A DNA stretch of 64,000 nucleotides from Rubritalea squalenifaciens DSM 18772. Lineage in GTDB: Bacteria; Verrucomicrobiota; Verrucomicrobiia; Verrucomicrobiales; Akkermansiaceae. The notes beneath the pieces were generated by a model that was not told the DNA's origin, did no database searches, and saw nothing but the letters and a program-made list of their open reading frames with translations. Shown here in pieces: positions 18,078 through 61,720 of this stretch (position 1 is its first letter; every line of letters starts with the position of its first letter). Position numbers and translations under genes: made by a program. The DNA is taken from positions 310,001 to 374,000 of the forward strand of contig NZ_FQYR01000004.1 in assembly GCF_900141815.1 (NCBI RefSeq), given 5' to 3'.

Positions 18078-19031
18078 CTAGTAGGAGGATTTTTCCGGGA
18101 ATTCCTTGGTTTCGTGTACCCAGCGCATGGCCTCGGTGGCTGTTTTGGGTTCTGGAAGTTTGTGGCCTCCCTGAAAGTGGAACACTTTGATTTTTGCTCG
18201 TGTTTTCTTTCTTAGGAAATCTCCATCGGGCTCTTCGTAGTGTTGGGCATTCTTGTCGGAGTCTCCGTTGATCATCGCGACGGCCATTTTCTTGGAATAT
18301 TTGAGGTCGTAGTGATTGCCCATCCAGCCACCAAAAGAGAGTATGCCAGCGGCTTCAGTATTCAAAAAACTGGAGCTGATGAATGCCCATGATCCTCCGC
18401 CAGAGAATCCGCCGAAGACTACACGTGTGGTGTCATAGCTGACCTGCTTCTTGGCTTCAGCCTGTGCAGCGAGATTTTCTTTCTTGATGGTCTCGCTGTC
18501 CTTTTTGTTGCGATAGCAATCAACTCCAATAAGTACCCAGCCTAGCTCGTCCGCTCCAGGCTTCATCATGTTCACAAGGCTCTTGGAGTGACCTCCAGGG
18601 GAGTAGACGTATGCAGCTGGTCGCTTCTTGTTAGATTCGTCGCCCTTGATGTAACCAGCTGGATAGTAGATGTGAATCTTATGTCCGCCGCCACCTTCAG
18701 GGGTGAAGGTCTCCATTCTGCCATTTTTGGCGGCTTCTCTTTTTTTAGCCATCTCCTCGGCGTGTTTCGCCATTTCTTTTGCGTACTCCTCGAGGCGATT
18801 TTGGTGCTCAGCAATGAGTACGGATTTCTCGATCACGACTTCCTTATCGTTTTTTAGCTTCAGAGTTAGCTTCCCGGTCTCGGTGTCGTACTTGATAATT
18901 TCGGCAGAGATGGTGGCGGAGTCTTTTTCTCTAGTCCAATCTTGGAATTCAGCTTTGACGGAAGATAGCGTCAGTAGAAGACAGCTGGCAGAGAGGAGTG
19001 AGAGGGAGTTGAGTTTGTTTGTGCGATGCAT
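18078..19031 (-). CDS. Secreted alpha/beta hydrolase with SHD1-like N-terminal domain
   Basis: A 317-residue exported protein. A signal peptide (residues 1-27) is followed by FQDWTREKDSATISAEIIKY and a KLTLKLKNDKEVVIEKSVL segment, which looks like the SHD1-type beta domain common in Verrucomicrobia and Planctomycetes. A short charged helix then leads to an alpha/beta-hydrolase domain: AYVYSPGGHSKS near the oxyanion region, GVDCYRN, nucleophile elbow GFSGGGSWAF, INGDSDKN as the acid region, and FQGGHKLPEP for the catalytic His. It is probably a periplasmic esterase or peptidase-like hydrolase; the substrate is unknown. It lies behind gltB's promoter region on the same strand as gltB. Confidence 0.8.
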   Translation of the reverse strand: MHRTNKLNSLSLLSASCLLLTLSSVKAEFQDWTREKDSATISAEIIKYDTETGKLTLKLKNDKEVVIEKSVLIAEHQNRLEEYAKEMAKHAEEMAKKREAAKNGRMETFTPEGGGGHKIHIYYPAGYIKGDESNKKRPAAYVYSPGGHSKSLVNMMKPGADELGWVLIGVDCYRNKKDSETIKKENLAAQAEAKKQVSYDTTRVVFGGFSGGGSWAFISSSFLNTEAAGILSFGGWMGNHYDLKYSKKMAVAMINGDSDKNAQHYEEPDGDFLRKKTRAKIKVFHFQGGHKLPEPKTATEAMRWVHETKEFPEKSSY

Positions 19032-31814: not shown

Positions 31815-32372
31815 GTGAGTAACAGTGAATTCCAAGACTTAGTCGACCAGCATTATCAGGCGCTCTATCGTTTCGCCTATTCTCTGGCGAAGAGCCCTGA
31901 CAGAGCGGCGGACCTCGTCCAGCAGACCTATTGTATCTGGGCCCAGAAGGGGCACCAGCTCAAGGACAAGTCCAAGGCAAAGACCTGGCTTTTCACCACA
32001 CTTTACCGCGAGCACTTGGGCCATGCGCGGAGACAGACCCGTTTTCCAGAGACTGATCTGGATGATGTGGACTACCAGCTCTCCACGGATGACGGTGAAC
32101 GCGAGACGGCGAGAAAGATGGACGGCCAGCGTGCCGTGGAGCTTCTCTCCCAGCTTGACGAGACCTTCCGTGCGCCTTTGACGCTCTTTTATCTCCAGCA
32201 GCATAGCTACAAGGAGATCGCCGAGATTCTGGACGTGCCCATGGGCACCGTGATGTCCCGTATCTCCCGGGGTAAGGAACAGCTTCGCTCTAAAATGCGT
32301 GACGAGGCTAATGACGTCCCGACCAAAATCATTTCCATTCAACAGCAAACCAACAAAAAAAGCCATGGATAA
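31815..32372 (+). CDS. ECF sigma factor
   Basis: A 185-residue group IV sigma factor. Region 2: YRFAYSLAKSPDRAADLVQQ and KAKTWLFTTLYREHLGHARR. Region 4: LLSQLDETFRAPLTLFYLQQ and the HTH HSYKEIAEILDVPMGTVMSR, ISRGKEQLRSKM. The GTG start at 31815 (agcaGTGagtaac) leads into SNSEFQDLVDQHYQALYRF. Its stop overlaps the start of the next gene by eight bases, which places it in an operon with a transmembrane anti-sigma protein. Neither the target promoter nor the signal is visible here. Confidence 0.92.
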   Translation: MSNSEFQDLVDQHYQALYRFAYSLAKSPDRAADLVQQTYCIWAQKGHQLKDKSKAKTWLFTTLYREHLGHARRQTRFPETDLDDVDYQLSTDDGERETARKMDGQRAVELLSQLDETFRAPLTLFYLQQHSYKEIAEILDVPMGTVMSRISRGKEQLRSKMRDEANDVPTKIISIQQQTNKKSHG

Positions 32373-33330
32373 GGAGAAAGCCAAATTTATGCTTCAGTGT
32401 TTCCGCCCGGACGGTGCGGATGCCAATGCCCCTGAATTTGCAGAGGCTCTCAAGCTGGCGGTCGAGGACCGTGAGCTCGGAGACTGGTTAGCCCATGAAC
32501 GCGCCCAGGATGCGGAGTTTGCCGCTGCTCTCAGCGGAGCACCGATTCCCGAGGGCCTGAGGCAGGAAATACTCGCTGTGTTAGAATTTGACGGTAGTCC
32601 GGCGAATCTGGATGAAGACCTGGATGCTTCCTTCGTAGGAGCGCTGGCCAGCATCGCACCGCCGGCAGGATTCCGTGAGCAGCTCGTGGCTGCCATGGAA
32701 ATGGAGACCGCAGAAAAGCCTTCCGTGGCAGACAAGGTTTCAGACATTTCCATGTGGCGCTGGATCACGGCCGCTGCAGTAGCCGCCGTATTGGCTGTCG
32801 GTGTCTTTGTCAGCCTGGACACTCCGGGCGGAGCCATCAATGACAGTGACCCGATCGTGGCTACCACTACTCCGGTGAGCATCGCCCCGCGCATCCCTAT
32901 GCAGTCGGCTCAGATCGAGCTGGCCCAGGTGATGAACAGCACCACCAAGGTGAAGCTGGAGGCCCAGGGCCTCAGTAGGCAAGACGCCTACGCATGGTTG
33001 GAGAGCGAGTCCCTCCCGGTACCAAGACAGGTTCCTGCTGGTCTGGAGAATGCCACTATCATCGGTTGTAAGGAAGTCACCCTGAAGTGCGGTGCCCAGG
33101 CTTCACTCCTCTGCTTTGAGAAAGAAGGCGTGGGTGTTGTCCACCTCTTCGTCTTCGACCAGGAAAACATCGATGGCTTTGAGAAGCTCGCCAGCAAGAA
33201 GACCATCTGCATGAAGTCCTGCAAATCCTGCAGCACGACGAAGTTCAATATCGTCAGCTGGAAGGAAGAGGACCGTGCCTACCTCATGCTGACCAAGGCG
33301 AACAAGGAAGCCCTCGTCACGCTCTTCTAA
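32365..33330 (+). CDS. Anti-sigma-factor-like membrane protein
   Basis: A 321-residue protein with the start at 32365 inside the sigma 3' end. The cytosolic N-terminal ~130 residues have two DUF-like repeats (PIPEGLRQEILAVLEF, APPAGFREQLVAAMEM). One membrane segment follows (WITAAAVAAVLAVGVFVSL, residues ~152-170), then an extracytoplasmic domain with GLENATIIGCKEVTLKCG and a cysteine-rich run TICMKSCKSCSTTKF. The Cys pattern suggests redox sensing or metal binding. By position it is the sigma regulator, although no standard zinc anti-sigma (HxxxCxxC) motif is present. Confidence 0.8.
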   Translation: MDKEKAKFMLQCFRPDGADANAPEFAEALKLAVEDRELGDWLAHERAQDAEFAAALSGAPIPEGLRQEILAVLEFDGSPANLDEDLDASFVGALASIAPPAGFREQLVAAMEMETAEKPSVADKVSDISMWRWITAAAVAAVLAVGVFVSLDTPGGAINDSDPIVATTTPVSIAPRIPMQSAQIELAQVMNSTTKVKLEAQGLSRQDAYAWLESESLPVPRQVPAGLENATIIGCKEVTLKCGAQASLLCFEKEGVGVVHLFVFDQENIDGFEKLASKKTICMKSCKSCSTTKFNIVSWKEEDRAYLMLTKANKEALVTLF

Positions 33331-33520
33331 GCCATGGTATAGATCATTTTAGTACACATATGGGTTGTGTGAGAAAAGGCTTGGAACCTGAACAGGGTTC
33401 CGGGCCTTCTTTGCGTCTGGGAGCAGGGGATTTGTGGAGGCACAGAAAAAAGAGTGCTACATTGTGAATGGATCTGCTGTGTTTTGCGTCCAAGTGACAA
33501 CGAAACCCAATAAACCAACC

Positions 33521-36031
33521 ATGTACCCTTTAAAACGTTTTGCCTTGGTTCTCTGTGCCGGCGGTCTGATGACCTCTTGTGATGAGATGCCCAATAAGTT
33601 GCCCGAGGACAGTCACAGCCCGGACGACTCAGCGGAAGTCATCGCCAGCCAGCAGGCTGAGCTGGATGCGCTGAAAGATGAGAAACTTGTCCTCGAGGAA
33701 GAGCTGAGACTCCAGCGAGAGCGCCTGGACGGCATTGATAGCCGCTTGGCTGAAATGGACCGCGAGCCGCTCCCTGAGCCCATGCCGCAGCCACTTCCAG
33801 AGCCGGAGCCTGAACCTTACGTGGAAGAGCCTGCGCCGGAGCCCACACCTCCCCGGGCCATCGTCGTGGAGGAGGAGACTTACCCGGTAGTCGAGGATGG
33901 TCTGGGCATGTTCTATCGTGATCTCGCCCCCTACGGTGTCTGGTTTTATACCGATGAGTTGGGCTACGTCTGGCAGCCCCATGAGGCGCAGAACCCTGAA
34001 TGGCAGCCCTATGTTGATGGCTACTGGGTGTGGACCGATGAAGGCTGGACCTGGATATCTAACGAACCTTTCGGCTGGGCCGTCTATCACTATGGCCGCT
34101 GGGCTTTGTTAGTCGACGACGGCTGGGTCTGGATACCCGGTGAAGTCTGGGGACCTGCCTGGGTGGACTGGCGCTATAGCGATGACTACATCGGCTGGGC
34201 ACCCTTGCCTCCGGAGACGCTCGATTACAATGTCTACGTCACTTACAATGACTACGGCCTGAGCTGGAATTCTTACTGCTACGTGGAGACCCGTTACTTC
34301 GGTGTCGGCCGCAAGTACTCTAGGATCTCACGCCATCGCAATAGTCTGCTCTACAGGCTGACCCGCCACCTGCATGGCAACCGCCGCCACTATCACGAAT
34401 GTGGTCCTCGTCTGGACTGGCTGAGCCATCGTCACGGAGGCCGCAGGGTAGCCCACTACAGGCTGGACCGTGAGCACCGCCATGACTGGCGCGGAGACCG
34501 TCGCCACCGTGTGGAGAATGGAGTCGTCCACCAGTACGCCCCGCAGCTCAAAGTCGACCACGACCGCAAGAAGCTTGATGGCGTGAAGCGCAAGCTGGAC
34601 AAAGTCCGTCTGGAGCGCCGCAAGGACTACGCAGACAAACTGCGTGCCCAGTACAAGGATGACAACAGCAGCCTGACCAAGAACCGCTTCCACCGCAGTG
34701 ATTGGGACAAAGGTGAGCGCAAGCACCGCGAAGCCCGCCATGCCAATCTCGTGAATCTGAAACGCGAGCAAGACGAGCGCCGTCGTGGTGATCGCGATGA
34801 CCGCAACCGCTCAGACCGCGATGCCGACCGCATCCGCCGTGAAGCTGCGGCCAGAGAAAGCAAGCTGCGTGAAGCTCGAGATAAACGTGAGCGCGAAGCC
34901 AGAGAGCGTGCTGAGCGTGAGCGCCGTGCTCGCGAGATCGCAGAACGTGAGAACCGAGAAGCCAAGGAGCGTGCCGAACGTGAGCGCAAGATGCGCGAAG
35001 AACGTGCGAACAAAGACGCCCGAGAGAAGAACGACCTGCGTGCCCTGATCAAAAAGAAACAGGAAGAAGAAAAGCGTAAGCTCGAGGAGAAACTCAATCG
35101 CGAAAAACGCGATAGCGATCGCCGCAAGGAAATGGAGCGCAACCAGCGCGAGGAAGACGAGAAACGTAAGCGTGGCGAAGAAGAACGCCGTGCCCGCGAA
35201 GAAGATGCCAGAAAGCGCGGCGAGGATAGACGCAAGCGCGAGATGGAGGACCGTCAGCGTGAAGGCCGTGAGAAAGCTGAGCGTGACCGCGAAGGCAGAG
35301 AGAAAGCCCAGCGCGAACGCGCCGAACGTGAGCGTGCTGAGAAAATCCGCGCCGAGCGTGAGGCCCGTGAAAAGGCAGCCCGCGAAGCCAAGGAAAACGC
35401 CGCCCGCGAAGCCGAGATGAAGCGCAAGGCCCAGGAAGAACGCGAACGCAAGATGCGCGAGGAACAAGAGGCCAAAAAGCAGAAAGAGGTGAAGAGTATT
35501 CGTGAGCTGTTAGAGCGAAAGAAGGAAGAGGAGAAACGTCAGCGCATGGAGAAGCTCGAGCGTGAGCGCCAGCAAAAGGCAGAGCGTGAGGAACGCGCCA
35601 AGGCGGAACGCAAGGCACAGGAGCGCGCCCAGCGCGAGCAGCAAGAGCGCGCCGAGAAAGCCCAGAGTGCCCGTGAAGCCCGGGAACGTCAGGCCCGCGA
35701 ACAAGCAGAGCGCGCCGCCAAGGAACAAGCCATGAAAGCCGAGCGCGCCAAGGCGGAGCAAGAGCGCCGCGAACGCGCAGCCAAAGAGCAGGCCGCCCGT
35801 GAGGCCCAGGAGCGTGCCGCCCGGCAGAGAGCGGAGCGCGAGCGCCAGCAGCGTGAGGAACAGCAGCGCCGTGCCCGCGAACAGCAGGAGCAGCGCGAAC
35901 GCGCCGAACGTGCCCGCCAGGAGCAGCAGCGCAAAGCCGCCGAAGAACAGGCCCGCCGTCGCCAAGAACTTGAGCAGAAGAAACAAGAAGCCCGCGAGCG
36001 CCTCAGGAATAAACTCAAGAAGACACGCTAA
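33521..36031 (+). CDS. DUF6600-like lipoprotein with very long R/E-rich helical region
   Basis: An 836-residue protein. The start at 33521 gives a signal peptide ending at C20 (GGLMTSC); a longer in-frame start at 33434 is unlikely. After a coiled coil (residues 45-83) and a Pro/Glu linker comes an aromatic domain: APYGVWFYTDELGYVWQP, WQPYVDGYWVWTDEGWTWIS, FGWAVYHYGRWALL, WGPAWVDWR, IGWAPLPP, the DUF6600 pattern (tandem YGxW…GWxP). From about 235 the chain is basic and then an arginine/glutamate-rich helix of ~450 residues (ERERREIAE-type heptads). It is probably outer-membrane anchored with a long helical rod. The last 51 bases recur at 38660. Confidence 0.82.
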   Translation: MYPLKRFALVLCAGGLMTSCDEMPNKLPEDSHSPDDSAEVIASQQAELDALKDEKLVLEEELRLQRERLDGIDSRLAEMDREPLPEPMPQPLPEPEPEPYVEEPAPEPTPPRAIVVEEETYPVVEDGLGMFYRDLAPYGVWFYTDELGYVWQPHEAQNPEWQPYVDGYWVWTDEGWTWISNEPFGWAVYHYGRWALLVDDGWVWIPGEVWGPAWVDWRYSDDYIGWAPLPPETLDYNVYVTYNDYGLSWNSYCYVETRYFGVGRKYSRISRHRNSLLYRLTRHLHGNRRHYHECGPRLDWLSHRHGGRRVAHYRLDREHRHDWRGDRRHRVENGVVHQYAPQLKVDHDRKKLDGVKRKLDKVRLERRKDYADKLRAQYKDDNSSLTKNRFHRSDWDKGERKHREARHANLVNLKREQDERRRGDRDDRNRSDRDADRIRREAAARESKLREARDKREREARERAERERRAREIAERENREAKERAERERKMREERANKDAREKNDLRALIKKKQEEEKRKLEEKLNREKRDSDRRKEMERNQREEDEKRKRGEEERRAREEDARKRGEDRRKREMEDRQREGREKAERDREGREKAQRERAERERAEKIRAEREAREKAAREAKENAAREAEMKRKAQEERERKMREEQEAKKQKEVKSIRELLERKKEEEKRQRMEKLERERQQKAEREERAKAERKAQERAQREQQERAEKAQSAREARERQAREQAERAAKEQAMKAERAKAEQERRERAAKEQAAREAQERAARQRAERERQQREEQQRRAREQQEQRERAERARQEQQRKAAEEQARRRQELEQKKQEARERLRNKLKKTR
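35981..36031 (+). repeat. 51-bp direct repeat, copy 1 (3' end of DUF6600-like gene)
   Basis: Covers the last 16 codons and stop of the DUF6600-like gene. It matches 38660-38710 with three differences in 51 bases, in the same frame and orientation. Confidence 0.9.
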
Positions 36032-36126
36032 GCCCAATCAAGAGGCGCATCCCAGCCGTCCACGATACATCTAACAATCAAATCTCCAGTAGAGATCAAT
36101 GGAGCTTTTTGCCAGTGAAGGGATAG

Positions 36127-36161
36127 AATAAAAGCCTCTGGTTAGACCAGAGGCTTTTATT
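36127..36161. terminator. Bidirectional terminator between convergent genes
   Basis: A 15-bp perfect stem (AATAAAAGCCTCTGG and its complement) with five loop bases, and T-rich tails on both strands. It separates the DUF6600-like gene and the PDZ gene. Confidence 0.9.
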
Positions 36162-36185
36162 ATGAAGTGAAGAGCTTGCGGCTGT

Positions 36186-37562
36186 TTACTCGTTCTCTTG
36201 TGGCCTGGCTGAAGGGAGACTGAAGACGGGGCCGAGTGCCTTGGCCAGCTCCTTGCTGAGTTGCTCAGCGTTTGCCACCTCTTTCTCCTTGAGTACTTTC
36301 AAGAGCGTTTCCTGCACCGTTTGGTTTTGAATCACCATCGGGGTCACTGAGTCCGTAGTGAAGGCTGCGATTCCTGAATGCACCATGACTTCAGAATCTC
36401 CGGTACCCCAGTTCAGGGCATTGGCCTGGCCTAGGGGGATGACTCGTCCGCGCTGGTTCTGGATCTTGCCATCGGGTGTGACGAGGGAGAAGAGAGTCTC
36501 ATCTTGTATATTTGTGTAGTTCTTGGTGAACTGGCCATTCTCATCTACGAGCTGATGCTCGCGTAGGATCTTGCGGTACTGATTTGGAAGAGCGAGGAAT
36601 TGTGTCTGGTTATTGAGTTCGAATGTTTTCTCTCCCTTGGCCGACCGGATGATCACGTTGTTTTTGTCATCTGTGGACTCAATGATGAGCATTTCTTGCT
36701 CGATTCCGGGGACTCGGAACATAGCAGACTTTGGAATCACCTGCGTCATTGCGTTCTGATTGGTGCTGATCTCCTTCAGGGCTACGGTGGCCAGGGACTT
36801 ATTGCCCTCTCGTAGGTACTCCACCTGCACCGTGTCGTCGGCCTTGAGGCGCTGCAAGACGGAGATGATGGTTTCCAGCTTATCAGTTGGTACCTGATTG
36901 ACTGAGGTGATGATGTCTCCGGCTTGGAGTCCGGCCTTATCGGCAGGGAGACCTGGAGATACCGAGTCGATAATCACCCCGGACTGGATACCCAGATGCT
37001 GCTTCAGCTTTGGTTCGATCTCATTGATCGCCACGCCCATGACCAGTCGCTTGCTATCGATCGCGTTGAGCCGGATCGTAGGCTGTGGGGTAGCTGGCTT
37101 GACCTCATGCAGGGAGACGGAGACCGTGGATTGCTTGCCTGAGCGCAGGTAGGTCAGCTGCAGGGTGTCTTCGGGTTTGTGCTTCTTGGTGAGTGAGGTG
37201 ATGTCTACGAGCTTGTTGATCTTTGTCTGGTCAATGGCGGTGATGATGTCCCCGGCCATGATTCCGGCCTTGGCGGCGGGCATTCCCGGAGCGACTTGTT
37301 CTACCAGGACGCCAGAATCAATACCGAGTTGCTGTTTCAGTCTTTGGTCGATTTCAGAGGTGTTGACTCCTATGATCAAACGCTGGCTGCTGGCATCGTC
37401 GAGCTGGACGGCAGCGGCGTAGTAGGTGGCATCACCTGGCTGTACTTGCTGGAGGGCCACAGAGCCGTCCTGCAGTATTGTGTACTGGATAGTAGGCTCC
37501 TCGGCGTGAAGCATCGGGCTCAGGGCCGCGAGCGTGAGTGCGATTTTGTGAGATGTCTTCAT
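36186..37562 (-). CDS. Periplasmic protein with two PDZ domains
   Basis: A 458-residue exported protein. A signal peptide (MKTSHKIALTLAALSPMLHA) is followed by a beta-rich region and two similar PDZ domains: domain 1 near LKQQLGIDSGVLVEQVAPGM, PAAKAGIMAGDIITAIDQ; domain 2 near LKQHLGIQSGVIIDSVSPGL, PADKAGLQAGDIITSVNQ. Both lack any fused protease domain, so it resembles the binding half of a DegP/RseP-type system. The C-terminal ~180 residues (VIIRSAKGEKTFELNNQTQF…) are unassigned. It follows a sigma/anti-sigma pair on the same strand; a role in sensing envelope proteins is a reasonable inference. Confidence 0.85.
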   Translation of the reverse strand: MKTSHKIALTLAALSPMLHAEEPTIQYTILQDGSVALQQVQPGDATYYAAAVQLDDASSQRLIIGVNTSEIDQRLKQQLGIDSGVLVEQVAPGMPAAKAGIMAGDIITAIDQTKINKLVDITSLTKKHKPEDTLQLTYLRSGKQSTVSVSLHEVKPATPQPTIRLNAIDSKRLVMGVAINEIEPKLKQHLGIQSGVIIDSVSPGLPADKAGLQAGDIITSVNQVPTDKLETIISVLQRLKADDTVQVEYLREGNKSLATVALKEISTNQNAMTQVIPKSAMFRVPGIEQEMLIIESTDDKNNVIIRSAKGEKTFELNNQTQFLALPNQYRKILREHQLVDENGQFTKNYTNIQDETLFSLVTPDGKIQNQRGRVIPLGQANALNWGTGDSEVMVHSGIAAFTTDSVTPMVIQNQTVQETLLKVLKEKEVANAEQLSKELAKALGPVFSLPSARPQENE

Positions 37563-37604
37563 GGTTCTAGTTTTTGGTTGCTGGTTGTTTGTTTGGGTTG
37601 GTGA

Positions 37605-38060
37605 TTAGTAGATAGTCACCGGGTTGGCGGTGACGGTATCGATCTGTTTGTCCACCTGGATGGTCTCTTTGGTAGCTGGATTTTCGAAGGTGATCCGGTA
37701 GGTTGTGGCCTGCTGCTGCAGGTGGATGGGAGTACTGTTCTGCAGGCGTACGTAGCGATGGCTGGTCTCGGTGGAAATCGGCTCATAGGATACGGGGCGG
37801 AAGCCGGAGGTCTCCGCTTCTTGCTGGCTGATCTGCACGGGCTGAGCCGGGGCTGGATCTGTAGCCGGATCGCTGAGGAACAGGGCAAGGGTGAGGGCGG
37901 CGGCCACGGCGGCGATCCAGGGGAGGAAGGGCAGCACCTTGCTTTCTTTCCGGGGTGCTTGCATTACCTCCAGGATGGTCTGGCGCAGCTGGGGGGGCAG
38001 CTGCTTCGGGGCAGCGGCCTGGATGCGTTTTTCCAGTTCGGATAAATGGTCTGAGTTCAT
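37605..38060 (-). CDS. Small anti-sigma-like membrane protein
   Basis: A 151-residue single-pass protein. The cytosolic N-terminus (MNSDHLSELEKRIQAAAPKQ, LPPQLRQTILEVMQAP) resembles that of the anti-sigma proteins of this phylum. The membrane segment is LPWIAAVAAALTLALFL (~residues 46-62), and a short extracytoplasmic part follows (YRITFENPATKETIQVDKQI). It overlaps the sigma stop by four bases (ATGA), which supports translational coupling. The PDZ gene follows after 42 bases. The three genes form a sigma, anti-sigma, periplasmic sensor cassette. Confidence 0.75.
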   Translation of the reverse strand: MNSDHLSELEKRIQAAAPKQLPPQLRQTILEVMQAPRKESKVLPFLPWIAAVAAALTLALFLSDPATDPAPAQPVQISQQEAETSGFRPVSYEPISTETSHRYVRLQNSTPIHLQQQATTYRITFENPATKETIQVDKQIDTVTANPVTIY

Positions 38061-38566
38061 GTGGTCAGTGGTTTGAGAGCAGATTCTAGATGCAGCAGCG
38101 CCAGCTGGTAGCGCGCGGCAGCGGTGGATTTCGGGATGTCGAGAATCTCGGCAATGTGCTGGAAGGTGAGTTCCCCCCAGAGCTTGAGGCTGATGATTTC
38201 GCGTAGCGGTTGGTCGAGCTCGGCAATGGCGCGGTTTACGAGATCGTGTTCCTCGCTCTGGGAAAGCTGTGGCGTGGTGAACTCTGGCTGCAGTGCGGGA
38301 TCCTGCTGCCAGGTCTCCTCCCGCTGGCTCCGGCTCTGGGATGAGCGGCCCAGATCGATGGCGCGTTGGCTGATTTTCCGGTAGGCGAGGGGGAGATCAG
38401 GTGTGGCGCTGGGAGTGGCTTTCCATAGTTCCAGGATGACATTCTGCAGCAGGTCCTCGGCATCCTGGTCGGATCGGGTGATCTGTCTGGCGTGGGCGAG
38501 AAGTCGCCAGCCGAACTCGTCGATCCAGGTGGTCCAGGCATGGTGATGGTGCGTCGCGTCAGTCAT
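38057..38566 (-). CDS. ECF sigma factor
   Basis: A 169-residue sigma factor from the ATG at 38566, which follows GAAGAG. Region 2: WIDEFGWRLLAHARQITRSD and QDAEDLLQNVILELWKATPS; region 4: AIAELDQPLREIISLKLWGE and LTFQHIAEILDIPKSTAAAR, YQLALLHLESAL. The HTH is complete. A start at 38611 would add 15 residues without support. It heads the three-gene cassette and lies inside the 2.6-kb segment bracketed by the 51-bp repeat. Confidence 0.9.
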   Translation of the reverse strand: MTDATHHHHAWTTWIDEFGWRLLAHARQITRSDQDAEDLLQNVILELWKATPSATPDLPLAYRKISQRAIDLGRSSQSRSQREETWQQDPALQPEFTTPQLSQSEEHDLVNRAIAELDQPLREIISLKLWGELTFQHIAEILDIPKSTAAARYQLALLHLESALKPLTT

Positions 38567-38659
38567 GATCTCTTCACCCTTAGAAGCGTAGCCCTGAGCG
38601 ATCTGTCCCAAAGAAAGGCGAAAAAAAGTTTTCCTGAGTGGTTTCTAGGGTGATTCGGG

Positions 38660-38710
38660 AAACAAGGAGCCCGCGAGCGCCTCAGGAATAAACTCAAGAA
38701 GACACGTTAG
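38660..38710 (+). repeat. 51-bp direct repeat, copy 2 (orphan gene tail)
   Basis: A near-copy (three differences) of 35981-36031. In the same frame it reads KQGARERLRNKLKKTR and stops, so it is an orphan 3' gene end with no upstream gene body. It sits between the sigma cassette's start and the hydrolase stop at 38714. Confidence 0.9.
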
Positions 38711-38713
38711 GGA

Positions 38714-39676
38714 TCAGGAGTTGAGGAACTCCAGCACCCGGGCCTCGGCCCAATTCTGCCTTTGCCAGGGACTGCCGAATCCCACGTGCCCGCCCTGGCG
38801 GGTCACCTCCAGATAGAAGTGCTCGCTCCGGAGTGCCTCCTCATGGGGATAGCATCGCTCGCCGAGGAAGGGATCATTCGCCGCCTGCACCAGCAGGGTG
38901 GGGATGCGGATGTTTTCGATGAATGGGCGCGAGCTGCAGCGCTCCCAGTACTCCCGCGCATCGCGGAAGCCATGCAGGGGCGCCGTGTAGGCATCGTCAA
39001 ACTGTTGAAAAGTTTCCATACGCAGCCCGGCATCGTGCTCGGGCAGCCCGGGGTGCAGCTCCCGCTTGTGCTCCACCTTCTCCATCAGGCTGCGGAGGAA
39101 GCGCCGCATGTACAGTTTCCGGTTCCACCAGGACTCCAGGCTCTTGGACGAGCAGCTCAGATCACAGGGCACGGAGAAAGTCACCGCCCGGTGCAGCTGC
39201 GGCGGCAGTTTTTCTCCCAGTTCGCCCAGCAGCTTGAGCGTGATGTTTCCCCCCAGGCTGAATCCCACCAGATCCACCTGCTTGGCAGGGTGCGTGGCCA
39301 GCGCATGATCCAGCACCCGCTTCAGGTCGTCGCTCACCCCGCTGTGGTAGAAGCGCATCAGCCGGTTCATCTCGCCACTGCAGCTGCGGAAGTTCCAGGC
39401 CAGCACATCCCAGCCCGCCTGCCACAGCGCCTCCGCCATCGCCTGGACGTACATCACCTTGGAGGAACTCTCCAAGCCGTGGGAAAGAATTGCCAGCTTG
39501 CCGCGGCCCTCGCGCCGCCAATCCAGATCCAGAAAATCCCCGTCCTCCAGCTCCAGCCTCTCCCGCTCCCTCGTCACCAGCCTTGGCCTCCTCAGCACCG
39601 CCGGAAGGATCGTCTGCAAATGCCCCCCCGGCATCCACCAAGGCGACTGATAAGCAGAACGTTCAACAATCGGCAT
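38714..39676 (-). CDS. YheT-type alpha/beta hydrolase
   Basis: A 320-residue cytosolic protein of the YheT/COG0429 type (esterase- or lipase-like, true substrate unclear). Key blocks: QSPWWMPGGHLQTILPAVLR, FLDLDWRREGRGKLAILSHG, LAWNFRSCSGEMNRLMRFYH, nucleophile elbow VGFSLGGNITLKLL, acid region VQAANDPFLGERCYP, and catalytic His in TRQGGHVGFGSP. The length is normal and the triad seems complete, so it is probably active. A second, broken copy of its first ~25 codons is at 40725-40802. Its start is 4 kb or less from several insertion remnants. Confidence 0.93.
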   Translation of the reverse strand: MPIVERSAYQSPWWMPGGHLQTILPAVLRRPRLVTRERERLELEDGDFLDLDWRREGRGKLAILSHGLESSSKVMYVQAMAEALWQAGWDVLAWNFRSCSGEMNRLMRFYHSGVSDDLKRVLDHALATHPAKQVDLVGFSLGGNITLKLLGELGEKLPPQLHRAVTFSVPCDLSCSSKSLESWWNRKLYMRRFLRSLMEKVEHKRELHPGLPEHDAGLRMETFQQFDDAYTAPLHGFRDAREYWERCSSRPFIENIRIPTLLVQAANDPFLGERCYPHEEALRSEHFYLEVTRQGGHVGFGSPWQRQNWAEARVLEFLNS

Positions 39677-39830
39677 ACCCTATGCCTTACTGCGCGGAAG
39701 AAGGAAGGGCAAGGGTAAGGTGGGGGAGGTAAATTTCAACAGGACGATGAAACGCGCTGTTCTGGACGCGCATCTGTTTGGTTCACGACAGGATGACCAA
39801 CTATAGCAAGGTATGGACACACAGACCTCT
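39594..39830 (+). repeat. Long direct repeat, copy A (hydrolase start + IS3 transposase fragment)
   Basis: About 230 bases nearly the same as 40725-40980. It holds the first ~28 codons of the YheT gene (reverse strand) and, beyond them, a forward-strand fragment of an IS3-type transposase (39735-39806, FNRTMKRAVLDAHLFGS, then broken by an internal deletion). Confidence 0.85.
39735..39806 (+). pseudogene. IS3-family transposase fragment (copy A)
   Basis: Forward frame reads FNRTMKRAVLDAHLFGSRQD then a stop. It matches the C-terminal transposase piece at 40860-40988 but lacks about 30 bases of it. It is a dead remnant. Confidence 0.7.
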
Positions 39831-39909
39831 CCCTCAGTCACCTCGTTCTCGTGATGAAGAGCCTGTGAATGGTGGCGAGCCAGTTTCATAGTTTTTTTTC
39901 CCGGGCACT

Positions 39910-40626
39910 CTATCTCGTTAGCGTGTGACGGCATTTCGGATAGGCTGAGCATCCCCAGAATGTTTGTCCGGAATTTGGTCCGCGCTTCGCCATACGTTCA
40001 AGCATCGGACTACCGCATCGTTCACACGCAGGTGCAGTCTCGGCGTCCGCTTGGTTTCCCTCGGCATAGGCTTCCTCGTTGATTGGAGTGGAATCAGTCG
40101 TCCCCAGAGGAGAAGGTGGAGATGATTCTGCTTGTGGATCCATGGAGAGGTGTGGCGCAAGCTGGAGGCGTATCTGTTCCGGGTTATAGGCTCTCGCTGC
40201 CGGGATACGAATCAAGGGAAGCCCGGCAGTCACAAAGACTTGATCGACAAAGGTGTCACGTGCCTGCCTGTCTGGCTTTTGGTGTGATGCATCATCCAGT
40301 TCAATGGCGACGAGTGGATTCATCGTGGCTGTGTCGCAGATGACGAAGTCGATATGCTTCTGACTGATCTTACCACGGGCACTCAAGTTGATGTGCGGCT
40401 GCCGGACGAAGAATAGGTCGGCCAGATTGACCTTGGTGAGTAGGTGGTGATCGGGAGAGAGGGTATTGCGAACGACATGGAAAAATGAAATCTCAGCGTG
40501 GCTGAGGAAGTCGTCACGCCTTGCATAGGGAAGTTCTTCTTGAGCAGAGGCATCTACAGCTTTCCTACCAAGAAAAGGTGCGAGTAGTATACCAAGGCAG
40601 CCAGATTTATTCTCGTTAGCGGGCAT
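39910..40626 (-). CDS. DUF2726 nuclease-like protein with topoisomerase-type zinc ribbon
   Basis: A 238-residue protein. The N-terminal part holds a helix (FLSHAEISFFHVVRNTLSPD) and the DUF2726 core: LLTKVNLADLFFVRQ, KHIDFVICDTATMNPLVAIE, LDDASHQKPDRQARD, LPLIRIPAARAYNPEQIRLQ. The DFxxxD…hAIELDDxSH pattern is that of a restriction-endonuclease-like fold. After a low-complexity linker (residues ~165-200) comes a single zinc ribbon: CERCGSPMLERMAKRGPNSG, FWGCSAYPKCRHT (zf-C4_Topoisom type). The gene is bracketed by the long repeat and is the whole content of that insertion. Possible role in DNA processing or defence; unproved. Confidence 0.85.
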   Translation of the reverse strand: MPANENKSGCLGILLAPFLGRKAVDASAQEELPYARRDDFLSHAEISFFHVVRNTLSPDHHLLTKVNLADLFFVRQPHINLSARGKISQKHIDFVICDTATMNPLVAIELDDASHQKPDRQARDTFVDQVFVTAGLPLIRIPAARAYNPEQIRLQLAPHLSMDPQAESSPPSPLGTTDSTPINEEAYAEGNQADAETAPACERCGSPMLERMAKRGPNSGQTFWGCSAYPKCRHTLTR

Positions 40627-40724
40627 ACAGTACAGTTATTTTTTTCTAACAATATTGGCAAGCTGAACTTGATGAGGCCTGTAAAGTGGAGGTTCAGAAC
40701 CCGCTTAGTTGACTCGTCCCTCAC

Positions 40725-40802
40725 GCCACCGGCAAGATCGTCTGCAAACGCCCCCGGCATCCACCAAGGCGACTGATAAGCAGAACGTTCAACAAGCGGC
40801 AT
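40725..40802 (-). pseudogene. Broken 5' end of the YheT hydrolase gene
   Basis: The reverse strand reads MPLVERSAYQSPWWMPG, which matches the first 17 residues of the gene at 39676, then shifts frame (AFADDLAGG in place of GHLQTILPA). It is a duplicated gene start without a gene body. Confidence 0.8.
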
Positions 40803-40980
40803 ACCCTATGCCTTACTGTGGGGAAGTAGGAAGGGCTAGAGTAAGGTGGGGGAGTAAGTTTCAACAGGACGATGAGACGCGCTGTTCTGGACGCGCACCT
40901 GTTCGGTTCAATGACGGAGGTTCGTGACATGGTCCACGTCTGGATGACCAACTACAGCGAGGAATGGATACACAGAACGC
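40725..40980 (+). repeat. Long direct repeat, copy A' (hydrolase start remnant + IS3 transposase fragment)
   Basis: Similar to 39594-39830 (by eye about 88-90 %), with indels including a ~30-base stretch missing from copy A. Its distal half is the intact end of the transposase. Confidence 0.85.
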
Positions 40981-40988
40981 TCAACTAA
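40860..40988 (+). pseudogene. IS3-family transposase C-terminal fragment
   Basis: The forward frame reads FNRTMRRAVLDAHLFGSMTE, VRDMVHVWMTNYSEEWIHRT, LN and a stop. The pattern (hxDxxLFxSxxEVRxxVxxWxxxYxxxxxHxxL) is that of the end of the IS3 OrfB catalytic domain, including the final conserved Glu region. No upstream transposase remains, and the IS ends are not identifiable. Confidence 0.75.
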
Positions 40989-41006
40989 CAGAAAAAGAGA
41001 AAACTC

Positions 41007-41225
41007 TCATTTTAATCTACCCCCTTGGCGGGGAAGTTTACACGTCCAAATCATATCGGGGTTTGAGGCTATCAATGAACGATCCATCGCCCTGTGATGA
41101 TTCTTACAGAGGGCGATGCCGTTACGTGGGTGGTCATCTTGGCTTTCGGCAAAAGGAATGATGTGGGCGGTATCGACAACGGTATGGCCTCCTGGGAGGC
41201 GAATACGTAATCCACAGGGGGCCAC
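41007..41225 (-). pseudogene. HNH endonuclease fragment
   Basis: The reverse frame contains VDTAHIIPFAESQDDHPRNG, IALCKNHHRAMDRSLIA, which is the HNH signature (AHI…N G xxLCxxHHxxxD) of McrA-type and other restriction-like endonucleases. The frame is closed upstream (TGA at about 41320) and the N-terminal part of such proteins is missing. It is therefore a remnant, not a full gene. The GTG at 41225 may be an artefactual start. Confidence 0.65.
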
Positions 41226-41241
41226 CGATTCACCTGAATGA

Positions 41242-41505
41242 AACTGGTTGGAAGCCCTGAAAGCGGGGCTTGTGGACTCATCGACCGAAATTTCAGAAAT
41301 AACAGGATTTTCATCGGGACGGGTGCGTCAAATTATCAGATTGATCAATTAACCACCTGAAATCCTTGCCCACTTCAAGTCTTTGGAGGGGGCAAAATCG
41401 TTAAGGGGCTTCTCAGAAAACAAGCTGAGAAGGATTGTTGCGATGAAGTCAGAGGATAAGCTGGAATATTTTGAGAGTGCTTTCGGGGTCAAAATCAGGG
41501 GCTAA
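41242..41505 (+). pseudogene. Remnant of a recombinase-associated HTH gene (in-frame stop)
   Basis: The forward strand reads NWLEALKAGLVDSSTEISEI, TGFSSGRVRQIIRLIN, a TAA stop, then PPEILAHFKSLEGAKSL, RGFSENKLRRIVAMKSEDKL, EYFESAFGVKIRG and a final stop, all in one frame. The EIxxxTGxSxGRVxQIIxLI…PEIL…LxxxxLRxI pattern resembles the small HTH proteins often found beside site-specific serine recombinases. The internal stop and the missing N-terminus show that it is dead. It overlaps the upstream end of the HNH fragment on the other strand. Confidence 0.5.
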
Positions 41506-41520
41506 CTTGGTTCACTCGGT

Positions 41521-43221
41521 TCAACGAGTGAAACCAAGCACTTCCTGTTCAGGATCGTAAATTTCATAACCCATGGAGGAATAACCTTTCATCCGTTTTC
41601 TGAACATAGAGGCAAACATAGGAGCATTATCATCCACAATATCCTTTACGGCTCCCTTACGATTGAGACTTTGGATGATGGCAATATCAACTTTCTTTGT
41701 TGGCTTATTCTTTCCTCCGCCAATTTGACCAATTTCTTTGGGATCAATGTCCAGAAATGTTGAAATGCGGGCTTTCCATTGATCTAGGAGCTGTCTGCGA
41801 TGCACGATAATGAGAGTATTTGTTTTTCTCCGCGCGATGATATTTGCCGCTACGACTGTTTTACCAAAAGCAGTTGCTGCACAGATGATACCCTCGTCAT
41901 ATTTCATTACCGCTCTGACAGCTCTTGTTTGATCCGAACGAAGCTCTCCTTGGAATTTTATACTAAGAGGTTCTCCCCCAAAGCGTTTGTCTTCTGTTAA
42001 TACCTTTATCTCGTGAGTTTCGCAAAGTGTTTGGAGATCTTGAAGGCAACCACGGGGTAGAGCAATATGCTCAGAAAAATCCTCAGCACGGTGGACAAGC
42101 CGAGGTATGTTGGAGGTGGAAAATTTCATCGCCTGAGCTTGGTAGAATTCCGGATTATGAAATGCAGCAAGACGAATGATCCTGTTGATCAGAGCTGGAG
42201 GTAAGCTGGCTTTTTCAATGAAGAGCAGATTTGCCCGAATTGCTTTCACCTCTTCAGGCAGAATGCCGTCCAATGGTTCAGAGCAAAAATGCTCGGAAGG
42301 TTTTAGCTCCCAAGGTCTCTCAATTTTATCTCCATCTTCAAATCGATGACGCAGTCCGAGGAGATCTCCTGAAATATTGGCGACAATATCTTCAATCTGA
42401 AACGCAGTCATTTTTCTGACACCACCCAGATAAGCCCACTGGTCCTCGTAAGGAGTAAGATTTCGGTCAATGAAGACGCTACCTCCTTGTTGCCTTGGAA
42501 TTTTTTGTAATGGTAATGCAATGAGGTTGCCGAAGCCACCTTTGGGCAAGGTGTCCTGGCTGGGAAAAAATCGGTCATAGGAATCAAGCCCCATTTCGGG
42601 ACGTGATTCCATGGCATGGGTTAGGATCGCCGATCCCAGTTTACGAGCAAGTGAAGATTGAATAGGTTCACGAAAGAAAATCCACACGTGGCCTCCATTT
42701 CCGGAGCGTGATCGTTCCAAAGATGCAGAAACCCCCAAAGCATCGCATGAATTCAAAAACGCTAAACAGTCTTGTTGCCAAGATTTCTTGTCAAAATCAG
42801 CAGCAAGAAACCAACACCTGTCATCTTCTAAAATAGCGTATATTCCCATCGTGATCTTACCACTGAGGTGGTTGTGGATTACATGATTATCGACAGGTAA
42901 ATACTGCCGTTCCTCCTTGGGCACAACTTCTCCCCAGTTTCTGTGATAGACAGGTGCATATCCGGCAGTGCCTTTCTGAGGGTTTTCCCAGCGAACGGAA
43001 TAAACATCTTCCCGTCCACGAAAGAGTTGTCTGAAAAATTTGACCTTCTCATCTGAAGAAGAATGATTGTCTATAGACGAAGCACAGGTTTTATGCGGAG
43101 GCTGGGCTGTTGTCTTGGATTGGTAGTGGTTCAATTGCCTGTGAAGATCAGAATTTTCCTTCGTCAGACGTTTACACTCGGCTTCGAGCTCACGAATTCT
43201 GGCTTTTAATGGCTCGAACAT
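41521..43221 (-). CDS. TOTE-type AEP primase-helicase, internally deleted
   Basis: A 566-residue protein. Residues 1-35 are a coiled coil; residues ~60-290 form an archaeo-eukaryotic-primase (AEP) domain of the kind found in TOTE conflict systems, with the catalytic DxD (D142-F-D144) and the SGNGGHVWIF histidine (H178) intact. Residues ~415-530 are the start of a superfamily-2 helicase with Walker A AATAFGKT (448-455) and VHRRQLLDQW. At residue ~530 the chain jumps to APMFASMFRKRMKGYSSMGY, which is normally the far C-terminal tail. The DEAD/H box and all C-terminal helicase motifs are missing (the family is usually about 900 residues). It lies 18 bases behind the Fic gene, in one operon. Confidence 0.85.
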   Translation of the reverse strand: MFEPLKARIRELEAECKRLTKENSDLHRQLNHYQSKTTAQPPHKTCASSIDNHSSSDEKVKFFRQLFRGREDVYSVRWENPQKGTAGYAPVYHRNWGEVVPKEERQYLPVDNHVIHNHLSGKITMGIYAILEDDRCWFLAADFDKKSWQQDCLAFLNSCDALGVSASLERSRSGNGGHVWIFFREPIQSSLARKLGSAILTHAMESRPEMGLDSYDRFFPSQDTLPKGGFGNLIALPLQKIPRQQGGSVFIDRNLTPYEDQWAYLGGVRKMTAFQIEDIVANISGDLLGLRHRFEDGDKIERPWELKPSEHFCSEPLDGILPEEVKAIRANLLFIEKASLPPALINRIIRLAAFHNPEFYQAQAMKFSTSNIPRLVHRAEDFSEHIALPRGCLQDLQTLCETHEIKVLTEDKRFGGEPLSIKFQGELRSDQTRAVRAVMKYDEGIICAATAFGKTVVAANIIARRKTNTLIIVHRRQLLDQWKARISTFLDIDPKEIGQIGGGKNKPTKKVDIAIIQSLNRKGAVKDIVDDNAPMFASMFRKRMKGYSSMGYEIYDPEQEVLGFTR

Positions 43222-44584: not shown

Positions 44585-44604
44585 ATGGCGGGCCGGGAGG
44601 GATT
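44585..44604 (+). repeat. 20-bp copy of the tRNA-Ser 3' end (att-like site)
   Basis: An exact copy of 44763-44782, which holds the CCA end, the acceptor stem and part of the T stem of tRNA-Ser(GCU). Such copies arise when elements integrate at tRNA 3' ends. Confidence 0.8.
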
Positions 44605-44757: not shown

Positions 44758-44763
44758 TGGAAA

Positions 44764-44853
44764 TGGCGGGCCGGGAGGGATTCGAACCCTCGATACCGTT
44801 TCCGGTATACTCCCTTAGCAGGGGAGCGCTTTCGACCACTCAGCCACCGGCCC
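44764..44853 (-). tRNA. tRNA-Ser(GCU)
   Basis: A 90-base class II tRNA on the reverse strand. Acceptor GGGCCGG pairs with CCGGCCC, followed by G and an encoded CCA. The anticodon stem CTCCC/GGGAG carries loop CTGCTAA, giving anticodon GCU (serine, AGC/AGU). A long variable arm (TACCGGAAACGGTA) is present as expected for serine. The T loop GTTCGAATC is intact. It lies at the right end of the disturbed region, and its last 20 bases are repeated at 44585. Confidence 0.97.
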
Positions 44854-59611: not shown

Positions 59612-61720
59612 TTACCAGTCTATTTTAGGTCTGCGCCTCCAGGAACGGTAATTCTTTCCCGGTGGTTTCTGGAGATCGGAGTGAAGTTCGAGTAGCTCTC
59701 TGGCCCGTTCTTCCTTGCTGAGGTTGGGATCGAGCTGTTTAGCGAGTTCTTCAGGGGTGAGGGGACGTTCTTGGGGGGGCTTGCGGCCATCCTTTGATTG
59801 TTCTGAGTTCGTGGATGGTTCCTGTTGGTCGTCCTTCTGCTGGTCGTCCTTCTGTTGGTCGTCCTTCTGTTGGTCGTCCTTCTGCTGGTCGTCCTTCTGT
59901 TGGTCGTCCTTCTGCTGGTCGTCCTTCTGCTGGTCGTCCTTCTGCTGGTCGTCCTTCTGCTGGTCGTCCTTCTGCTGGTCGTCCTTCTGCTGGTCGTCCT
60001 TCTGCTGGTCGTCCTTCTGTTGGTCGTCCTTTTGTTGGTCGTCCTTTTGTTGGTCGTCCTTCTGCTGTTCGTCCTTCTGCTGTTCGTCCTTCTGCTGGCC
60101 GCCGTCACCCCCTGTTTGAGTGAGTTGTTTTCGAGCATTTTTGATATCCCGGATATTCTGCTCAGTCAGCTTTTTGTTATTAAGTGTAGCTTCGTCTTCA
60201 GGGCGGATGCTGAGTGAGTCATTGTATTTGGCCAAGGCGTTGGTGAAGCCTTTTTCCAATGTATCCAGATCCTTCAGTTCAAGAGGCGGAATATTCTCGG
60301 GGTCTGTTTCTTCAACAGCTTTGATCAGATAGTCTTCGAGAGATTGCTCTTCAGCTACCTTAAGCTGAGACCATTGCTGTTGGTAGAGAGAGTTGCCGAT
60401 GTTGTAGTAGGCCTTTTGCTGAGTGTCCGCTTTTTCAGAAAGGAGTGAGGAACTGTATTCTCTGGCTGCTTGTGGATAGTTGCCGAGCCGGAACTGAATC
60501 TCGCCAATCGCTTGTGAGAGTTCGGCATGCTTTTGTCCACTAGAGAGGCTACGGGCACGTCGCAGGTCAGCCAGCGCATCTTCGAATTCTTCTTTTTGAA
60601 GCTTCTTGTATCCTTGTTGCTCTCTCGCAGGGCGTTCGATGAACTTGGCCTTAGCTTCGTCCCACCATTCACCTCCATAGCTTGATTCAGGAACGCAGAG
60701 CATGAGCGCAGCCAGAGCGGGGACGGCTGACTTAGGCAGTCTCCATTTAGCTCTCACCAGACATGACAGGAGTAAGATGAAAGCCCCCGGAGCCAAAAAC
60801 CACATGTAGAGTTCATTGGGGATGACTCTTTCTCTGCCGTCTTGTTCGAATTGCTCCATTTTATTGAGTGCTGCCGCGATGGTTTTATCAGGACTACTAT
60901 TAATAGACGTATAAATGCCGGAGGTACTTTCTGCAAGTTGTCGTAAGACTTGGGCTTCGAGTTTGGTGTGGACGACCTGACCTTCCTGATTGCGATGTTT
61001 GCCTGATGGGTCTTCTTCCGAGGGAATGATGCCCCCCGCCGGGGTGCCGGCACCTACACAGAAGATTTGCACGCCAGACGCCTCGGCAGTTCTGGCAACC
61101 TTATCAATCCCTTCATCACTCTCCGTTCCGTCGCTGAAAATGACGAGAGCATTGGCCCGTTGGCCTGTGGCTTTGAGTGCTTCGACTCCCTTGATGGCAG
61201 CTTCGGACAAGTTGGATCCATCAATGGCAACACTATCCGAGTCTAGCTGGGAGAGCGAATCATGGACCGCTGCGTGGTCGATGGTCAAAGGGGCAATAAT
61301 GTGGCTGCTACCAGCAAAGGCGATAACTCCAACATGGTCGTTTGGAAAGGATTCAAGTAGCTGCAGGGAGAGTGATTTAGCAGCGGTAAGGCGATCCGGG
61401 CTGACGTCCTGGCAGAGCATGGATTTGGAGACGTCCATCATGATCATGATGTTACGGCTCTTGATCTTGTCGAAACTTTTGGATTCTCCTTTATAAGGGC
61501 GGGCCAATGCCAGAATGAAGCAGACGAAAGCTAGCATCAGCAGGGCATAGGATATCCAGAAGAGGTAGGCTTTCTTCTTGCTGACCAAATCCTCGCTAAG
61601 GCGCGGAGCTACGAATTTTCTCCAAGCCTGTCTCTTGGATCTTCGCGCTAAGATACAGCCCACGACCAAGAAGGGAATGAGTAGCACCAAATAGAGCAAA
61701 TATGGATTCAGAAAAGACAA
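59612..61720 (-). CDS. BatB/BatC fusion with (QQKDD)n repeat
   Basis: A 702-residue protein. The N-terminal half is BatB: two membrane segments and a von Willebrand A domain with MIDAS motif [41 protein letters not shown] third membrane segment near 330 follows. The C-terminal half is BatC: TPR units ([54 protein letters not shown]) and then 18 copies of Q-Q-K-D-D/E (from 15-base DNA repeats at 59822-60091), and a basic Pro-rich end ([20 protein letters not shown]). BatB and BatC are separate in most species. It lies 6 bases ahead of the BatD/E gene. Confidence 0.88.
59822..60091 (-). repeat. 15-bp tandem repeat, 18 copies, in the BatB/C gene
   Basis: Unit CTGCTGGTCGTCCTT on the forward strand (with CTGTTGG and CTGCTGTTC variants). 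It encodes QQKDD (16 units) and QQKDE (2 units) in the protein; the number of units probably varies between strains. Confidence 0.95.

Follow-up and report, generated by a model that had tools for sequence, protein, structure and literature searches.

Gene Ends as Sites of Insertion

The 3′ ends of protein-coding genes serve as attachment sites for many bacterial ICEs and IMEs. That integrative elements restore the gene end at which they insert is also known, and the integrase is then usually found inside the element. Among the thaumarchaeal integrative elements, 14 of 68 use the 3′ ends of protein-coding genes, and the repeats quoted for crenarchaeal elements are 29–69 bp long (PMC6563490). 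The tRNA islands and tycheposons combine 3′-end scars with stacked cargo, over a quoted size range of 4–200 kb (PMC10872708). For the effector/immunity arrays of the V. cholerae T6SS, displaced effector ends and homology-facilitated recombination have been proposed (PMC5361080).

Consider now a locus in Rubritalea squalenifaciens DSM 18772, where an operon for an ECF sigma factor, an anti-sigma factor-like protein and a PDZ protein is bracketed by two copies of the 3′ end of a DUF6600 lipoprotein gene. The window analysed is the whole stretch of 64,000 nucleotides between positions 310,001 and 374,000 of contig NZ_FQYR01000004.1, and positions refer to the window except where a contig is named. 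The locus resembles the elements at protein-gene 3′ ends in its direct repeat of a gene 3′ end, in the restored gene end and in the repeat length of 52 bp, which lies inside the range of 29–69 bp, but its 2.6 kb contain no integrase, mobility or replication gene. Because the defining recombinase is absent, the locus is not classed as an integrative element, though its layout is element-like. Scars at 3′ ends with stacked cargo, as in tycheposons, are likewise found at four tRNA genes of this genome; the locus itself differs from tycheposons in that its target is a protein gene, in that no recombinase accompanies the module and in that its size is below their quoted range. With the V. cholerae arrays it shares a conserved portion of a gene that is followed by a new module, and an old 3′ end moved downstream, but here only a tail of 17 codons is stranded, the DUF6600 protein is hardly changed, and the operon is no effector/immunity pair.

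Anatomy of the Bracketed Operon

The direct repeat consists of the copies R1 (35980–36031, plus strand) and R1′ (38659–38710, plus strand), which are identical at 49 of 52 positions and hold the final 17 codons, stop codon included, of the DUF6600 gene. R1 is the gene's own, attached 3′ end with TAA, and R1′ is a stranded gene tail with TAG at its end; as in elements that restore their target, both copies run in frame to the stop. The other two differences are an E-to-G replacement (GAA/GGA) and a silent CGC/CGT, so that two of the three are silent. A repeat of 51 bp with three differences had been reported in the first-pass annotation; the repeat and its differences are real, but the true length is 52 bp and the left edge had been placed one base short. 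A 30-base core of the repeat has two matches in the window, with 0.00 expected from shuffled sequences, and a search for a 41-base pattern, at most three mismatches being allowed, gives R1 and R1′ as its sole matches in the whole genome of 4.32 Mb. This rules out a dispersed repeat family, of which the genome would hold more than two copies. The core was not found in viral contigs.

The DUF6600 gene (33434–36031, plus strand) is an open reading frame of 865 codons with a lipobox-like stretch and a tail rich in R, E, K and A; its likely start is the internal Met of MYPLKRFALVLCAGGLMTSC, and its earlier assignment to DUF6600 is upheld by the match to PF20245 (E = 5.3e-35). Directly 5′ of this gene, a further pair of an ECF sigma factor and an anti-sigma-like protein is seen (within 31815–36031), and two ECF systems are thus opposed across R1.

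Between the copies lies module M (36032–38658, 2627 bp), which has no full-length DNA match in relatives or plasmids. All three of its operon genes are on the minus strand, 154 and 92 bp separating the outer genes from the repeat copies, and the set of ECF sigma, putative anti-sigma and double-PDZ genes that had been read from the sequence is found again. The ECF sigma factor (38057–38566) has 169 residues from its ATG, which lies 92 bp from R1′, or 184 residues from a TTG start; regions 2 and 4 (Sigma70_r2 and r4_2, above cut-off) occur in this short protein with no other sigma region, as expected of an ECF factor. The gene for the anti-sigma factor-like protein of 151 residues (37605–38060) overlaps with its start the end of the sigma gene. 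Near residue 45 the protein has a single transmembrane segment (hydropathy of 2.1 across 19 residues); it aligns, at no more than 28%, with the product of the operon's middle gene in relatives; in a profile search it matched no Pfam anti-sigma domain. The third gene (36186–37562) encodes an exported double-PDZ protein of 458 residues, with PDZ_2 matches in two stretches (E = 2.6e-34). Its C-terminal 188 residues have no relative among 260 genomes of the family. Judged from its parts, the operon may respond to an envelope signal, perhaps sensed via the PDZ protein, at which the membrane protein would release the sigma factor that it had been holding.

The 3′ ends of the DUF6600 and PDZ genes converge on a hairpin, AAGCCTCTGGTTAGACCAGAGGCTT (36127–36161, an opposite-strand self match), which is likely a bidirectional terminator. 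At the other border the stranded tail adjoins, as had been noted, the gene of a YheT-like alpha/beta hydrolase (38714–39676, minus strand; Abhydrolase_1, E = 2.7e-14; relatives up to 74%), whose convergent stop codon is 3 bp beyond that of R1′.

No recombinase reading frame occurs in 36032–38658, in agreement with the first reading of the sequence, and the five PF00589 matches of the genome all lie outside the window; the two with the best scores are probably Xer genes, and the other recombinases are at 401602 of contig 4 and at 18910 and 119145 of contig 3. A composite transposon was rejected, since neither border of module M carries an IS gene or an inverted repeat. A diversity-generating retroelement was rejected as well: no reverse transcriptase reading frame lies between the repeats, and at most of the sites where the copies differ R1′ carries G and not A.

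A Divergent Second Copy of a Widespread Operon

Operons of this type are widespread among relatives: the order of sigma factor, small membrane protein and PDZ protein is seen there too, and relatives of the sigma factor are present in 57 of 58 genomes. The genome has another copy of the operon, beside uvrA on contig 5, which in the tree groups with sequences from the same genus and the same family and is the vertically inherited one; the copy in the window is a second, divergent one. With operons of this kind from the same order, such as the uvrA-linked one, it shares the gene order, the sigma domains, the putative membrane anti-sigma factor and the exported PDZ protein, while differing in its two PDZ domains, its unrelated C-terminal part of 188 residues, a sigma identity of about 40% and its place. 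The window's sigma factor falls outside a well-supported clade (97/96) that contains the uvrA-linked copy; its branch is long (2.03), and its position in the tree and its nearest kin are thus unsure.

A recent duplication of the genome's own operon is ruled out by a DNA search, in which module M had no second copy in the genome, together with the tree. Searches with DNA and protein found no close copy of the module elsewhere. An origin from a plasmid or a virus was rejected, as the sole plasmid match covers 50 bases, in Ensifer plasmids, and the repeat core is absent from the viral contigs searched. In two scans of a species collection there was no close strain, no relative of the C-terminal part of the PDZ protein and no close relative of this YheT.

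It had been asked whether the module is always flanked by a copy of its neighbour's gene end. It is not: at seven other ECF/anti-sigma/PDZ loci no flanking gene-end duplicates occur, and the repeat is therefore no constant companion of the operon. Because the copies of the operon in relatives lack such duplicates, the repeat marks this insertion and not the operon.

Comparable Scars in the Genome

A self-comparison of 2.04 Mb of this one genome (contig 4 in whole, contigs 3 and 5 in part), in which the genes outside the window were open reading frames called by script, gives about 20 non-tandem direct repeats, many of which are gene ends. Duplicated 3′ ends that bracket a module come from four protein genes and four tRNA genes in these 2.04 Mb. 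The end of a DHQ-synthase-like gene, over 69 bp, brackets an HTH regulator and a DUF6428 gene (contig 4, 297222/298194); that of a NADAR gene, over 73 bp, brackets a block of 7.5 kb with VTC, DUF4956 and porin genes (contig 5, 504170/496621); and that of a gene for 106 residues, over 195 bp, brackets a gene with RCC1 repeats (contig 4, 384250/389678). The stranded tail at the DHQ-synthase-like locus (contig 4, 296115–298262) reads EKCMEMLKGYSKAEDKAGLVWK-stop, and at the NADAR locus (contig 5, 496621–504242) the stranded tail has a short palindrome around its stop.

Two of the tRNA scars enclose islands without a visible integrase, 5.6 kb at tRNA-Phe (contig 4, 557694–563376) and 6.1 kb at tRNA-Thr (contig 5, 104899–111111), and these share a kind of cargo, with an amidohydrolase and a DUF3299-NicO protein. 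The island at the 3′ end of tRNA-Met measures 20.8 kb and has a weak integrase match near its far end, and the 3′ end of the window's tRNA-Ser recurs in part 46 kb off, where its neighbour is an integrase gene (contig 4, 400805 and 401314). Furthermore, the terminator by a uroporphyrinogen-decarboxylase-like gene is duplicated around a sulfatase gene.

When the three protein tails with gap-free alignments are pooled, 15 of their 23 differences are at third codon positions, where one third would be expected (P = 0.0017); the DUF6600 pair contributes only three differences, and the codon-position argument is that of the other two loci. Since the differences pile up at third positions, both tails of a pair have probably evolved inside working genes, and this favours an element that arrived with a tail of its own over duplication in place. 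The tails of DHQ-synthase-like genes diverge strongly between species, from which follows that the donor of that tail should be a close relative. One recombination core common to all gene tails was rejected, the pairwise similarity being within chance: two of 21 tail pairs are exceptions at P ≈ 0.015, a number nearly explained by multiple testing.

A Proposed Insertion by Single Crossover and Its Alternatives

The reading we prefer, with a probability of roughly one half, is that foreign DNA bearing the operon and its own DUF6600 tail entered by one reciprocal crossover. In this scheme the piece would have carried the ECF/anti-sigma/PDZ operon together with the tail of its own DUF6600 gene, and would have recombined once with the resident DUF6600 gene, at its 3′ end. 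That gene would thereby take on the incoming tail, and its former tail would end up beyond the module, next to yheT; R1′ is presumably this old resident tail. The foreign piece was probably circular, and the crossover may have been site-specific, by a tyrosine recombinase that acted in trans or has since been lost. A single crossover with a circle that carries a tail of its own accounts for the layout in one step.

That an insertion of the module rebuilt the gene end had been proposed in the first-pass annotation. The divergent operon copy, the unique repeat, the other scars and the tail differences agree with this, if indirectly; such repeats are not tied to the module elsewhere. In two protein-gene cases, DUF6600 and DHQ-synthase-like, the repeat ends exactly at the stop codon. 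Because the chance that a repeat ends within 1 bp of such a stop is about 0.003 per repeat, these ends suit a target-restoring element and not random recombination. Against insertion stand the module's want of a recombinase and that no relative presents an empty site: the DUF6600 gene occurs in 0 of 11 same-genus genomes, and in none of the relatives examined does it stand beside yheT. The absence of a common tail core argues, moreover, against a single integrase.

If one genome holds several modules that have a stranded gene tail and no recombinase, this would suggest that regulatory operons can be added behind working genes, without breaking them, by a trans-acting factor or by recombination. 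Stranded tails ending at a stop codon would be a simple signature of such events where no mobility gene remains. That small recombinase-free modules (about 1–7.5 kb) have been placed in trans behind many genes of this genome, or perhaps of its lineage, each with a matching tail, and that ordinary operons thus travel between strains as cassettes that restore gene ends, is a generalization that we consider unlikely as it stands.

The same layout would arise if RecA-type homologous recombination, with no dedicated recombinase, had brought in DNA from a related strain that already had the operon downstream of its DUF6600 gene. The DNA would have entered through one crossover if circular or, if linear, with illegitimate joining at its far end, and would have moved the old gene end downstream, much as was proposed for the displaced effector ends of V. 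cholerae (PMC5361080). Such an event, which we take as a serious rival though on the whole somewhat unlikely, needs no integrase, is consistent with both the coding-type divergence of the tails and the absence of a shared core, and has a parallel in E. coli, where single crossovers with incomplete circles gave duplicated lacZ 3′ ends of 109–950 bp (PMC3240628). It is also fitted by the neighbouring repeat R2, which does not look like an attachment site. R2 (39590–39831) comprises the yheT 5′ end, the stretch upstream of it and a broken 3′ remnant of an IS3-type transposase; over 196 bp it is 90% identical to 40719–40910, with a further matching block, and its counterpart R2′ (40719–40990) holds a truncated yheT 5′ end and a remnant of the same transposase type, the longer copy of the remnant matching rve_3 (E = 2.7e-7). 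A DUF2726/topoisomerase zinc-ribbon gene (39910–40626, minus strand; PF10881, E = 3.8e-29; PF01396) lies between the two. The layout is like that of the DUF6600 repeat, but R2 is a misfit as a gene-restoring attachment site because the 5′ end of a gene is involved; it is a sign that the region has recombined, and it makes a reading by integrase alone less convincing. Homologous recombination has, on the other hand, no reason to respect a stop codon, yet identity ends there in two cases. Lengths of 52–73 bp are short homologies for RecA, which counts against it, and the described outcome of true homology-facilitated illegitimate recombination is deletions.

With no foreign insertion at all, the gene end and older downstream DNA may have been duplicated in tandem and a subsequent deletion may have left the orphan tail. 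The R2 duplication nearby shows that the region rearranges, but two or more steps are required, the repeat ends at a stop codon, and the operon is a divergent extra copy. Duplication in place predicts, furthermore, neutral decay of the orphan tail, while the pooled differences favour third positions; we regard it as improbable.

Still more doubtful is that the repeat has nothing to do with the arrival of the operon and that other rearrangements joined the operon and yheT within an accessory region by the tRNA-Ser gene. The DUF6600 gene, this YheT gene and this operon, within 31.3–44.3 kb, are indeed without close same-genus counterparts, and a tRNA-Ser 3′-end scar is found at 44585–44604, but the two copies of the repeat lie close to the outer genes of the operon, at 154 and 92 bp. 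An assembly artefact or chance is very improbable, given the 0.00 matches expected by shuffling and the three fixed differences between the copies.

Other Features of the Window

The scar at the tRNA-Ser gene is an exact 20-bp copy of the tRNA 3′ end (44585–44604 and 44763–44782), 178 bp off on the 3′ side, with two matches found where 0.02 are expected. Low-GC DNA (about 45%) at 41007–43221 holds an HNH-like fragment and what looks like a truncated TOTE primase-helicase gene, and a Fic gene follows. Farther downstream, 59612–61720 encodes a protein in which QKDDQ repeats form a long run close to the C terminus.
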